From: Candidatus Fermentibacterales bacterium
GTDB taxonomy: Bacteria; Fermentibacterota; Fermentibacteria; Fermentibacterales; JAFGKQ01
NCBI GenBank assembly: GCA_016928495.1
Contig: JAFGKQ010000166.1
Coordinates: 1 to 5,402, forward strand
Direction: 5' to 3'
DNA length: 5,402 nt
The notes below the pieces were generated by a model. That model saw nothing but the letters and a program-made list of their open reading frames with translations, had not been told where the DNA came from and made no database searches. Shown piece by piece: positions 1-3,847 of the stretch. The translations under genes were made by a program, and so were the position numbers. Positions within the stretch are counted from its first letter, which is position 1. Each line of letters begins with the position of its first letter.

Positions 1-113
1 CCGTTGACGCTGACCCTGGCGCCTCTGACGAGATCGTCGGCCGCCCTTCTGGAGCAGACCCCCGATCTGGCGACGAAGCGGTTGAGCCTCAGCTCTCCCG
101 GGCCTCGGGACAT
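1..113 (-). CDS. rluB: RsuA/RluB-family rRNA pseudouridine synthase, N-terminal S4 domain (partial)
   Basis: Only the first 37 codons are in the window; the gene runs off the left edge. The translation contains LRLNRFVARSGVCSRRAADD and continues LVRGARVSVN, which is the start of the S4 RNA-binding domain that opens RsuA/RluB/RluE/RluF enzymes. These convert a specific uridine in 16S or 23S rRNA to pseudouridine; the catalytic domain lies outside the window. The start is ATG at 111-113, preceded by a purine-rich GGAAGAGGG, which sits very close to the ATG. It lies inside the end of scpB with a 25-base overlap, which suggests translational coupling. The order scpA-scpB-pseudouridine synthase is widespread in bacteria and is the main reason for the RluB label. 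Without the catalytic domain I cannot distinguish RluB from RsuA. The S4 identification is strong and the exact symbol is moderate. Confidence 0.85.
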   Translation of the reverse strand, partial: MSRGPGELRLNRFVARSGVCSRRAADDLVRGARVSVN

Positions 114-703
114 CCCTCTTCCGCCTCGCCGACGGGATCCTCCGCTTCATGCTCGGAGAGAGCGTCGAAGAGCTCGCCGGGTCTGAGCATCGAGGATATC
201 TCCCTGCTTCTGGGAAGATGGTCCAGATCCCGCAATCCGAAGTAGCTCAGGAAGGTGGCTGTCGTGCTGTAGAGCAGTGGCCGCCCGACGGCATCCATGC
301 GGCCCGATATCTCTATGAGATCCCTCTCGAGGAGCGTGCGGATGGCGCTGTCCGAGTTGACGCCTCTTATGGACTCGATCGTCGCCCGGGTACAGGGCTG
401 GGCGTAGGCTATCACCGCCAGGGTCTCCAGAGCGGCTCTGGTCAGCCTGCCGGGTCTCCTGCCCTCGAAGAGCTGAGCCACGACATCCCCGAGGTCCGGA
501 TCGGTCGCAAGCCTGTAGCCGCCGGCGTGCTCGACCACCGCTATCGCGTGGTTCCTGTCGGCATACTCCTGGCGCAGCTCCTCCAGCGCCTCCTCGACGG
601 ACTCCGCTCCGCTGCCCGTGAGATCGCAGAGGGCCTCGAGCCCGATCGGCCTGTCGGTCGCAAGCAGCAGCGCCTCGATCTCCCTGGTGAGCCTACTGAG
701 CAT
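89..703 (-). CDS. scpB: Segregation and condensation protein B (ScpB)
   Basis: A 204-residue protein of normal ScpB length. ScpB dimers bind the kleisin ScpA and, with SMC, form the cytoplasmic complex that compacts and segregates chromosomes. The first winged helix spans roughly residues 1-80, beginning MLSRLTREIEALLLATDRPI. The second contains the family signature LTRAALETLAVIAYAQP (87-103), then a TRATIESIRGVNSD stretch and GRPLLYSTTATFLSYFGL (about 143-160). The tail after about residue 180 is acidic and probably disordered. I chose ATG at 701-703 because the ScpB homology begins there and a strong GGAGGAG lies 5 bases upstream. The frame stays open to 805, but those 34 extra residues match nothing in the family. 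The start overlaps the end of scpA by 11 bases and the end overlaps the next gene by 25. Confidence 0.96.
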   Translation of the reverse strand: MLSRLTREIEALLLATDRPIGLEALCDLTGSGAESVEEALEELRQEYADRNHAIAVVEHAGGYRLATDPDLGDVVAQLFEGRRPGRLTRAALETLAVIAYAQPCTRATIESIRGVNSDSAIRTLLERDLIEISGRMDAVGRPLLYSTTATFLSYFGLRDLDHLPRSREISSMLRPGELFDALSEHEAEDPVGEAEEGCPEARES

Positions 704-1511
704 CCCCACTCCTCCACCCGGCTGTCCTGCGGACAGTGAGATCGCCAAAGGGCACTCTCTGGCGCATTCGAAGCCAGCCTCTCCTGACCAGCTCGAGAAC
801 CGCAAGGAACAGCGAGACGAGCAGCATCCTGTCCGCTCCCGAGCCGGCCATCTGCTTCAGAGTGCAGGACGATCTCTTCTCCAGAAGGGAAGATATCGTC
901 TCGATGCACCTCGAGAGCGGATAGGGGTCGCGCCTGTACCTCTGTATGGGCGGTGGCTGGTGCCTCAGCGCGATCCTGCTGTAGGCCTCGAGCAGGTCCA
1001 GGAGGCCGCTCTGGCCCGGGAGCTCCATGACCTCGGCGGGGCTCTTGCTCCAGCGTTCGCGCTCTCCGGAGGGCGTGAAGACATCCCTCCAGGCATCCTC
1101 GCTCTCCCTCAGCTCCTGGGCGGCCTCCTTGACGATCTTGTAGAGCAGGAGCTGCCGCATCAGCACCTCCCTCGGATCCTCTTCCTGGTCCTCCGAGTCC
1201 GGGCTGCTGGGCAGCAACGATCTGCTCTTCATGTTGGTCAGGATGGCCGCCATGACCAGGTACTCCCCTGCGATGTCCAGGTCGAGCTCCTCCGCCCGTC
1301 TCAGGTAGGCCAGGTACTGGTCTGCCACATGGGCCACCGGGATGTCGGTTACCGGTATCTCATCCCGCCTGATGAGGTAGAGCAGCAGATCCAGCGGCCC
1401 CTCGAAGGACTCGAGGTCCACCCTGCAGGTGTGGGCCTCGGAACGCACGGGTAGCTGCTCCTGATCGAAGAGCCCCGGGAGACCTCCCGCAACACCGCGC
1501 TCAGCAGACAT
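693..1511 (-). CDS. scpA: Segregation and condensation protein A (ScpA, kleisin)
   Basis: A 272-residue kleisin, the subunit that bridges the two SMC heads and recruits ScpB in the bacterial condensin. The N-terminal SMC-neck-binding domain shows the hallmark FEGPLDLLLYLIRRDEIPV (about 36-54), followed by ADQYLAYLRRAEELDLDIAG and the conserved LVMAAILTNMKSRSLLP. A charged middle part (about 105-185) carries acidic stretches. The C-terminal winged helix includes SLFLAVLELVRRGWL and VPFGDLTVRR (about 233-262). The start at ATG 1511 has GGAG 7 bases upstream and overlaps the Era-like gene by 11 bases. It leaves about 30 residues before the kleisin core, longer than usual. A GTG at 1448 with AGGAG 9 bases upstream is a possible alternative start. 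The stop overlaps scpB by 11 bases, so the two partners are coupled. Confidence 0.95.
   Translation of the reverse strand: MSAERGVAGGLPGLFDQEQLPVRSEAHTCRVDLESFEGPLDLLLYLIRRDEIPVTDIPVAHVADQYLAYLRRAEELDLDIAGEYLVMAAILTNMKSRSLLPSSPDSEDQEEDPREVLMRQLLLYKIVKEAAQELRESEDAWRDVFTPSGERERWSKSPAEVMELPGQSGLLDLLEAYSRIALRHQPPPIQRYRRDPYPLSRCIETISSLLEKRSSCTLKQMAGSGADRMLLVSLFLAVLELVRRGWLRMRQRVPFGDLTVRRTAGWRSGDAQ
709..715 (-). promoter_or_regulatory. Ribosome binding site deciding the scpB start
   Basis: On the minus strand GGAGGAG lies 5 bases before the ATG at 703. It is the best Shine-Dalgarno match among the start sites examined here. It selects this start over the in-frame ATG at 805 and lies within the last codons of scpA. 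Confidence 0.8.
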
Positions 1512-2415
1512 AGCCGAACTCCAGGAGGTCGCCTTCGCTGTCCGGCCATCCCTCCCTCACCTTCACCCAGAGGTCGAGGTAGAGGCTCTTCCCGAGCAGG
1601 GCTCTCGAGGCCTCCGAGGCCAGGTCCGAGATCCTCTGCAGGGTGGCGCCCTTCCTGCCGATGACCATCCCCTTGCTGGAGTGACGGGCAACATGGATGT
1701 TGGCCCTTACGTAGGTCTTGCCGTCCCTGAAGGAGAACTCCTCTATCTGTACCGCGGTCGAGGAGGCTACGTCCGGCGGAAGAACGCGATAGAGCTGGGT
1801 ACGGATCTGCTCGCCCACGAGGAACCGCTCGGAGTGGGGAGTCCTGCAGTCGTCCGGGAAGAGCGCCTCTCTGCGGGGCAGTTGGCCCACCACCAGCTCG
1901 AGGAGCTTCTCACCCCCTCCTCCCTGTGCGGGGCAGCACGACAGGAGCCCGGCGAAATCCCTCCTGAGGGCGGCCTGATGGAGCAACGCCGGCTTGAGGG
2001 AGTCAGGGAAGTAGTCCACGAACGTGAGGACCAGGATGACCGGCAGGGCACCGGCACGAGACAGCTCGAAGAGCCTCGATACCTCCATGCTGTCCATCTG
2101 CTCATCTATCCGTCTCGAGTCCATCACCAGGCAGTAGACGTCCAGCCAGGTCATGACCGGGTGATCGAGCACCCGGGAAATGTCGGGCGTGTCGATGAAG
2201 CATACCTGCCAGCCCGCAGAGGTAGTCAGCCCGGCGACATTGGTCCTGGTGGTGAAGGGCTGGCCCGTCACGGCCGAGATGCTCCTGCCCGTGACGTTGT
2301 TCAGTATGCTGGACTTGCCCGAGTTGGAAAAGCCCAGCAGGCCGGCGTATCCGGAGCTCTTGACCGGCCTCGGGTCGGTCGCCGGCGTGGCGCTCCTACT
2401 GCTGTCGGGTTCCAT
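1501..2415 (-). CDS. era: Era-like GTPase with KH domain, degenerate G motifs
   Basis: From ATG 2415 the protein has 304 residues, close to typical Era. Era is a GTPase that binds the 3' end of 16S rRNA through a KH domain during 30S maturation. Visible here are a P-loop GFSNSGKS (28-35), a switch I TTR (55-57), an FPDD segment before the KH domain, the KH loop VIGRKG (251-256), and the Era-like ending LDLWVKVREGW...GYV. Three nucleotide motifs deviate. G3 is DTPD instead of DTPG (75-78). G4 is TFVD instead of NKxD (131-134). G5 has SC where Era has SA (159-160). By eye the segment after G3 is about nine residues shorter than in E. coli Era. The ATG has GAGGG 5 bases upstream; an in-frame GTG at 2463 would add 16 residues but has no visible Shine-Dalgarno. 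The gene overlaps its neighbours by 20 and 11 bases. Family membership is firm, but normal GTPase activity is doubtful. Confidence 0.88.
   Translation of the reverse strand: MEPDSSRSATPATDPRPVKSSGYAGLLGFSNSGKSSILNNVTGRSISAVTGQPFTTRTNVAGLTTSAGWQVCFIDTPDISRVLDHPVMTWLDVYCLVMDSRRIDEQMDSMEVSRLFELSRAGALPVILVLTFVDYFPDSLKPALLHQAALRRDFAGLLSCCPAQGGGGEKLLELVVGQLPRREALFPDDCRTPHSERFLVGEQIRTQLYRVLPPDVASSTAVQIEEFSFRDGKTYVRANIHVARHSSKGMVIGRKGATLQRISDLASEASRALLGKSLYLDLWVKVREGWPDSEGDLLEFGYVC
1519..1522 (-). promoter_or_regulatory. Ribosome binding site for scpA
   Basis: GGAG on the minus strand ends 7 bases before the ATG at 1511 and lies inside the last codons of the Era-like gene. It supports the longer scpA start, although a second candidate (AGGAG before the GTG at 1448) remains possible. 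Confidence 0.5.
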
Positions 2416-3847
2416 CAGCGCCCTCGCCGCCCGCGAGGGAGTCCCCCGGTTGCGCAAGCTCACCGGAGCCGGCAGTGGAGGGGACGGTGTCCGGGGGAAG
2501 GGGAATCGAGCCCCCCAGGGCCATCAGGTCGCCCATCGCAGTCCCGAGGTAGATGCGGTTGCCCACCAGAAGCGGTGGAGATCCCGCATACCCGCCTATC
2601 TCCAGCGAGTCGAGCTTCGTGCCTTCGCGCCAGTCGATGACGTGGAGCCTCTGGTCGTCTCCCGGTATGTAGAGAAGCGTTTCCGCAACCGCGGGGGGAA
2701 CCTGCATCCAGTTCTCGAAGTGAAGCTCCCAGAGCAGCTCTCCGTCGTTCGTGCCCAGGCAGACGAGCCGGCTGTCGCAGGTGCCGAGGAACAGGTGGTC
2801 GTCCATGATGGCAGGCCTCGAGAGCACGGCCCTGAGCGGAGCGCTGGTCAGGTCCCTTGCCCAGACCTGCTCGCCCGAGACCATGTCGAAGCAGCGTACG
2901 GAGCCATCCGAGAAACCCACGAAGACCCTTCCCCCGGCGATGCTCGGCGCCGAGGCGACGCCCTGGCAGGACACGCTCCACAACCTCTGACCCGCCCGAT
3001 CGTAGGCAACGACCCTTCCGCTCTCGCTGGTGAAGACTATCACGCTGTCGCATACCGCGGGACCGAGGATCACGCCGCCCGGTGAGTCGCTCCAGACCAC
3101 CTCGCCGGTGGATCTCTCGAGCGCCGCGACGCTCCCGGCCGAGTTCCCGGTTGCTACGAGCGAATCCGCGAACAGGGCAACACCTGCGAAAACGTGGTAG
3201 CCCAGTCCTGCCGACCAGACCCTCGAGCCTGTCCGGCGATCGAGAGCGTAGAGGTAGCCGTCCTGGCCGCCGACATAGACGGTGGCGGAGTCGACGCAGG
3301 CCTCGCCGCAGAAGCCGCAGGAAGCCTGCATCCTCCAGACCTCGGCGCCGTTGTCGCAGTCGATGGCCCTGAAGAAGCCGTCGTTGCAGCCGATGTAGAG
3401 CACGCCATCGGCAAGAGCGGGGCCGGCGAAGAACTCCCTTCCGGTGTGCACCCTCCATTCCTCCTCGAAGGGAGCGACCACGTCCTCACCCCAGGCGGCG
3501 TTGCCGGACGGGCAGCCCCTGGGCTGAGGCCAGCAGTAGCCGTCCGCTTCCCAGACGCCCGAGGCCCCGGAGGCAGCCAGCAGGGCAGCATGGCCGGCCG
3601 AGGCGGCGCCACTGGAGAGAGAGGTTGCCACGAGCCCGGTGCGGTGGACTCTCCTGGCGGCTTCCAGATCGCGTCTCGCCGTGCAGCTCCTCGCCGACTG
3701 CAACAGCAGGATGGCAGCGAGACACAGCAGCATGGTGGAGAGTATGAGGCCTATCCTGCGAGTCTCGATGGAAGCCGGATGGCCCGACCCTTCCCGCGAA
3801 CCCGTTGTCCCCGCTCCCTCGGCCCGCTCTGCCGGAATGGTGGACAC
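2396..3847 (-). CDS. Membrane-anchored PQQ-type beta-propeller protein (BamB-like fold)
   Basis: A 483-residue protein. It has a 31-residue N-terminal segment, one hydrophobic helix (about 32-50, RIGLILSTMLLCLAAILLLQ), a linker to about residue 125, and then a propeller. Eight repeats of the PQQ/quinoprotein type can be counted, each with a V-Y-x-G strand, a D-G turn, a L/V-x-A-x-D strand and a G-x-x-x-W closing element, for example TVYVGGQDGYLYALDRRTGS. Eight repeats suit an eight-bladed propeller as in BamB or PQQ-domain proteins. The low-complexity tail (about 455-483) is Gly/Ser/Pro/Glu-rich. I see no catalytic residues, and no canonical lipobox at Cys55 (SARSC), so an uncleaved signal anchor with an exported propeller is likely. 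Fourteen cysteines, including CGFCGEAC (177-184), are unusual. The GTG start is 1 base after the previous stop, with no clear Shine-Dalgarno, implying coupling. The fold is well supported; the function is unknown (scaffold, sensor or outer-membrane assembly are options). Confidence 0.85.
   Translation of the reverse strand: MSTIPAERAEGAGTTGSREGSGHPASIETRRIGLILSTMLLCLAAILLLQSARSCTARRDLEAARRVHRTGLVATSLSSGAASAGHAALLAASGASGVWEADGYCWPQPRGCPSGNAAWGEDVVAPFEEEWRVHTGREFFAGPALADGVLYIGCNDGFFRAIDCDNGAEVWRMQASCGFCGEACVDSATVYVGGQDGYLYALDRRTGSRVWSAGLGYHVFAGVALFADSLVATGNSAGSVAALERSTGEVVWSDSPGGVILGPAVCDSVIVFTSESGRVVAYDRAGQRLWSVSCQGVASAPSIAGGRVFVGFSDGSVRCFDMVSGEQVWARDLTSAPLRAVLSRPAIMDDHLFLGTCDSRLVCLGTNDGELLWELHFENWMQVPPAVAETLLYIPGDDQRLHVIDWREGTKLDSLEIGGYAGSPPLLVGNRIYLGTAMGDLMALGGSIPLPPDTVPSTAGSGELAQPGDSLAGGEGADGTRQQ
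2421..2425 (-). promoter_or_regulatory. Ribosome binding site favouring ATG 2415 of the Era-like gene
   Basis: GAGGG on the minus strand lies 5 bases before the ATG at 2415, the same motif and spacing seen before the L,D-transpeptidase gene. The upstream GTG at 2463 has no comparable site, so the shorter start is preferred. Confidence 0.55.

Follow-up and report, generated by a model that had tools for sequence, protein, structure and literature searches.

The window, a stretch of 5,402 nucleotides, comes from a fragmented MAG (337 contigs, 81% complete) whose nearest named relatives are "Candidatus Fermentibacteria" records in the uncultured phylum Fermentibacterota, FCB group. Between positions 89 and 5402, an M15 peptidase gene precedes a YkuD L,D-transpeptidase gene, and the ends of genes overlap around a gene for an Era-like protein. 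The Era-like gene (positions 1501 to 2415, minus strand) lies downstream of a gene for a BamB/PQQ-like beta-propeller protein (2396 to 3847, minus strand), which overlaps its start, and is followed by ScpA (693 to 1511, minus strand), whose first 11 bases are shared with the end of the Era gene, and ScpB (89 to 805, minus strand). No RNA families were found in the window. The Era-like ORF is open on the minus strand from a GTG at 2463 to a TGA at 1501 (320 amino acids); the likely start is the ATG at 2415, giving a protein of 304 amino acids, and residue numbers here follow the 320-amino-acid frame.

The encoded protein consists of a TRAFAC G domain (MMR_HSR1, 1.1e-11) and a C-terminal type II KH domain (KH_2, 2.9e-10; positions 1546 to 1761, minus strand). 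All of the motifs described in the original prediction were found on the minus strand at the positions claimed. The P-loop (G1, GFSNSGKS; 2311 to 2334, residues 44 to 51, including the K+-linked Asn47) and the switch I TTR (G2; 2245 to 2253, residues 71 to 73) agree with the Era patterns GxxxxGK[ST] and TTR, and the KH GxxG loop reads GRKG (1648 to 1659). The Era patterns DTPG, NKxD, and SA are absent. G3 reads DTPD (2182 to 2193, residues 91 to 94), G4 reads TFVD (2014 to 2025, residues 147 to 150), and the G5 region reads SCCP in place of P[IVL]SA (1930 to 1941, residues 175 to 178). G5 is thus altered as had been proposed, but the pair that aligns with the canonical SA is Cys177-Pro178 rather than SC; other members of the clade carry C, T, or I followed by P, A, or S.

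Against the curated Era model NF000908, the window protein scored 171.4 bits, below the cut-off of 237 bits, and it also fell under the 116.25-bit cut-off of TIGR00436 (112.5 bits); its score against EngA was 46 bits. Its top-scoring solved relatives were Eras, and further solved-structure matches were generic GTPase folds, which have no bearing on family membership. A relative search recovered orthologs in the same order with 36 to 54% identity over most of the length. Full or partial copies of the Era-like protein were present in 39 of the order's 42 genomes; the three in which it was not found (G021, G033, and G035) are 66 to 88% complete. Among the 42 genomes, 24 of which are ≥90% complete and ≤5% contaminated, no protein passed the NF000908 cut-off for a canonical Era. 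A search with KH_2 typically returned two proteins in each genome, the Fermentibacterota Era and a protein of about 230 residues, taken to be uS3 on account of this length, with one additional weak match in G005. A paralogue beside a true Era, as suggested originally, was therefore rejected, since a second Era was found in none of the 42 genomes, with the caveat that the genome of the window is itself incomplete. In one genome (G041, C6, 72575 to 73466; locus L134), Era lies in pieces with a stop, so that this copy is either broken or misassembled.

A quick, midpoint-rooted phylogeny of 60 Eras, of which 37 belong to the phylum, placed the Fermentibacterota proteins in a single clade (SH-aLRT, 100) with a long stem, about 2.0 changes per site separating the groups. 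The order YkuD, PQQ/BamB-like protein, Era, ScpA, and ScpB, with the M15 peptidase gene ahead of YkuD and overlapping gene ends around Era, is retained across the phylum, traced as far as the loci reach, and none of these neighbors lies beside Era in seven outgroup loci. The window protein is the Era ortholog of Fermentibacterota and has been vertically inherited. Ratios of dN/dS in close pairs (dS < 0.8) were 0.03 to 0.16 for the whole protein and 0.02 to 0.19 for the G domain, with the KH domain mostly under stricter constraint than the G domain. These low ratios show purifying selection rather than decay; the original view that the frame and KH domain are maintained by selection held, with both GxxG glycines present in 36/36 clade members (KH loop, G[RK][KR]G).

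Motifs were counted in 36 nonredundant full-length Fermentibacterota Eras and in 107 Eras of other bacteria. The G3 glycine was found in 0/36 clade members versus 106/107 other Eras, the remaining one being unread; its place in the clade is taken by Pro (34/36), Ala (1), or, in the window protein, Asp (1). The G4 Asn was likewise absent from the clade (0/36 versus 102/107), so that losses of the DTPD and TFVD type are shared by relatives, and close relatives with canonical NKxD and DTPG, named at the outset as grounds for giving up the idea, do not occur among the 36 members. The G4 Lys was retained in 6/36 versus 106/107, and in the clade this site (position 148) holds only F, H, K, or R. Members of the phylum show G4 in two main styles, one T[FH]xD-like and the other, in genus g8, [GSC][KR]xD. 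The G4 Asp (Asp150 in the window protein) is invariant in both groups (36/36 and 107/107), every one of the 107 other Eras has [NTS][KQ]xD at G4, and the five of these without Asn carry Thr or Ser and are otherwise normal Eras; the original claim that GTP specificity was lost, or exchanged for another nucleotide, was accordingly overstated. Thr72, Asp91, Asn47, Ser51, and Asn55 were each present in 36/36 clade members and the P-loop Lys50 in 35/36, with Arg in the closest relative of the window protein, where the P-loop reads GPSNAGRS (L017 and L046, two loci that look like one species). The loss across the 36 members is selective: it falls on the side of the gamma-phosphate and switch II and on the nondiscriminating part of the base pocket and spares the phosphate, Mg, K+, and guanine-Asp positions. 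The heavier loss is that of the G3 glycine and the switch II helix, that is, of the switch and water-aligning machinery. A genome-wide loss of GTPase motifs was rejected, as Der (NKID and NKLD) and YsxC (TKID) of the same genome are canonical.

The region following G3 (approximately 2143 to 2181, minus strand) is shortened. The spacing between G3 and G4 was 53 to 56 residues in 38 Fermentibacterota rows versus 61 to 68 in 84 canonical Eras, and the earlier by-eye estimate of about nine missing residues was correct (8 to 9). A structure predicted with AlphaFold2 from the clade alignment had a mean pLDDT of 84, with blocks of the G domain mostly above 90, and matched Aquifex aeolicus Era (7c1o) with a Z score of 31 and 2.1 Å over 280 residues. 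In this model, helix alpha-2 is predicted to be reduced to two short helical turns (residues 95 to 98 and 102 to 106), whereas a control canonical Era modeled likewise was predicted to form one 16-residue helix there (78 to 93). The reduction agrees with the sequence gap in switch II. By alignment and model, the protein has lost conserved nucleotide or catalytic motifs while its fold stays that of a GTPase, as in pseudoGTPases. The resemblance of the model to GTP-bound structures was rejected as uninformative about a locked switch, since the model of the control canonical Era was likewise closest to GTP-bound structures.

The 16S rRNA 3' end GGCTGGATCACCTCCTT was found with intact h45 context in six genomes of relatives; the pattern search also gave chance matches, and only these six were counted. 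The Era target GAUCA-CCUCC is therefore present in six relatives, and it was not recovered from the fragmented genome of the window. RbfA, RsgA, and YbeY were present in most genomes. The 16S methyltransferase family RsmE (TIGR00046) was found in ten of the control genomes and in none of the six Fermentibacterota genomes sampled (G000 to G005).

Era takes part in building ribosomes and normally acts as a switch driven by GTP. In HAS-type GTPases, the backbone amide of the G3 glycine contacts the gamma-phosphate, and the switch II helix of Era moves on hydrolysis; proline has no amide hydrogen. Era is a HAS-GTPase (PMC10582724), a group in which backbone amides of two residues, the sensor Thr and the G3 glycine, are believed to hold the attacking water (PMC3153494). 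Substitution of the corresponding residue in Ras (G60A) impairs intrinsic GTPase activity (PMC4867591), the P-loop substitution K21R, a K-to-R change like that in L017 and L046, is lethal in Escherichia coli Era, and the G4 substitution N236I in human ERAL1 leads to Perrault syndrome (PMC10582724). Work on SpoIVA and Era identified the G4 Asp as the main guanine determinant and found that the Asn/Thr position does not discriminate between purines (PMC7952092), and guanine recognition may therefore survive in the clade, where this Asp is kept.

The favored reading, which we consider reasonably probable, is that the Fermentibacterota Era works in 30S assembly guided by its KH domain, its GTP-hydrolysis switch being disabled. 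The KH domain would bind the 16S rRNA 3' end (h45-GAUCA-CCUCC; RNA ligand, h45-AUCACCUCC), most likely still serving 30S assembly. The G domain may hold guanine nucleotide weakly, because it keeps its fold and most of the ligands for phosphate, Mg, and K+, and the normal GTP-hydrolysis switch would no longer run, because the G3 glycine has been replaced (usually by Pro) and the switch II helix has largely been deleted. RNA binding and later factors such as RbfA and RsgA, rather than Era's own GTP hydrolysis, would then control loading and release on the 30S subunit. We infer all three elements of this scheme, namely, the loss of hydrolysis and switching, the role in 30S assembly, and release by other factors. 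A pseudo-GTPase, as first proposed from the altered G3, G4, and G5, is still the best reading of the protein, although that proposal left unmentioned the retained G4 Asp, K+-linked Asn pair, Mg-binding Ser/Thr, and Walker B Asp. Taken to its limit, the scheme would make the Era of the whole phylum a true pseudo-GTPase, independent of nucleotide, whose sole contribution to small-subunit assembly is to chaperone RNA at the 3' end of 16S rRNA; we hold this version tentatively and regard it as somewhat doubtful.

Several observations weigh against the favored reading. The P-loop, sensor Thr, Walker B Asp, K+-linked Asn pair, and guanine Asp, kept in almost all members, suggest that nucleotide is still bound and perhaps slowly hydrolyzed. 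In the window protein itself, the argument for loss of hydrolysis is weaker than in its DTPP relatives, because the G3 Asp, unlike Pro, has an amide. Moreover, a strict requirement for the GTPase activity of Era has been reported in E. coli, where KH binding that escapes regulation is toxic (PMC10582724). A working guanine-nucleotide switch of altered geometry would accommodate the retained residues: TxxD or GKSD, together with a stacking residue at the Lys position, would select guanine, and hydrolysis would proceed without the G3 glycine, perhaps slowly or with a partner. The invariant G4 Asp, a residue at position 148 that could form a pocket wall, the conservation of Thr72, Asp91, Asn47, Asn55, and nearly always Lys50, and the normal Eras with Thr or Ser at the G4 Asn site are all consistent with such a switch, but a Pro at G3, as in 34/36 members, leaves no amide hydrogen, most of the switch II helix is missing from the model, and one lineage carries a P-loop Arg, and we consider it possible but rather unlikely.

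That Era has left ribosome assembly and become an RNA-binding scaffold or regulator elsewhere, perhaps tied to ScpA and ScpB or to the envelope genes, is improbable; the conserved operon with ScpA, ScpB, the BamB-like propeller, and YkuD and the rapid divergence along the stem would fit such a move, but no other Era was found to cover a usually essential job, the KH GxxG loop and its 16S target are intact, and gene order alone is weak evidence. A switch to ATP or another nucleotide has a precedent in SpoIVA, which arose from Era (PMC7952092), and the changed G4 Lys and G5 Ser/Ala of the clade point in that direction; SpoIVA, however, lost the Asp and kept G1 to G3, whereas the clade Era keeps the Asp in 36/36 and loses G3, making this reading highly improbable. 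The fragmented and incomplete source MAG and the broken copy in G041 might suggest a decaying gene or a sequencing or assembly error, but the same losses recur in 36 species-level genomes with intact frames, low dN/dS, and a conserved operon, and the chance of such an origin is negligible; for the clade as a whole, decay or error is refuted by the shared, conserved motif losses.

Why Era hydrolyzes GTP is still a matter of debate. A phylum in which the only Era lacks the G3 glycine, mostly lacks the NK of NKxD, has a cut-down switch II helix, and in one lineage carries a K-to-R change in the P-loop constitutes a natural experiment on that question, and a nucleotide-independent Era, if true, would show that Era can do without GTP hydrolysis. 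Pseudo-GTPases and an Era-derived ATPase are already known, and the open-access literature searched contained no account of a degenerate sole-copy Era or of a phylum with a sole Era so altered. The clade protein resembles the Eras of E. coli, A. aeolicus, and Staphylococcus aureus and human ERAL1 in its G domain and C-terminal type II KH domain, length, P-loop, sensor Thr, Walker B Asp, GxxG loop, and fold; unlike them, it lacks DTPG, NKxD, and SA, has a switch II about 8 residues short, and falls under the curated cut-off in 42/42 genomes. Like SpoIVA, an ATPase of spore-forming Firmicutes (PMC7952092), it is Era derived with degenerate G4 and G5. SpoIVA arose as a duplicate, has different C-terminal domains, and keeps G1 to G3 while its G4 Asp is replaced, a pattern that the window protein does not show; the clade protein is the sole Era, with G3 lost and Asp kept. 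The septin pseudoGTPases (PMC10731463) and pG1 and pG2 of p190RhoGAP (PMC5593906) likewise retain the GTPase fold with nucleotide motifs degraded under selection; these are eukaryotic proteins of other families, whereas the clade Era is a bacterial protein, present in single copy, with a presumed role in ribosome assembly.
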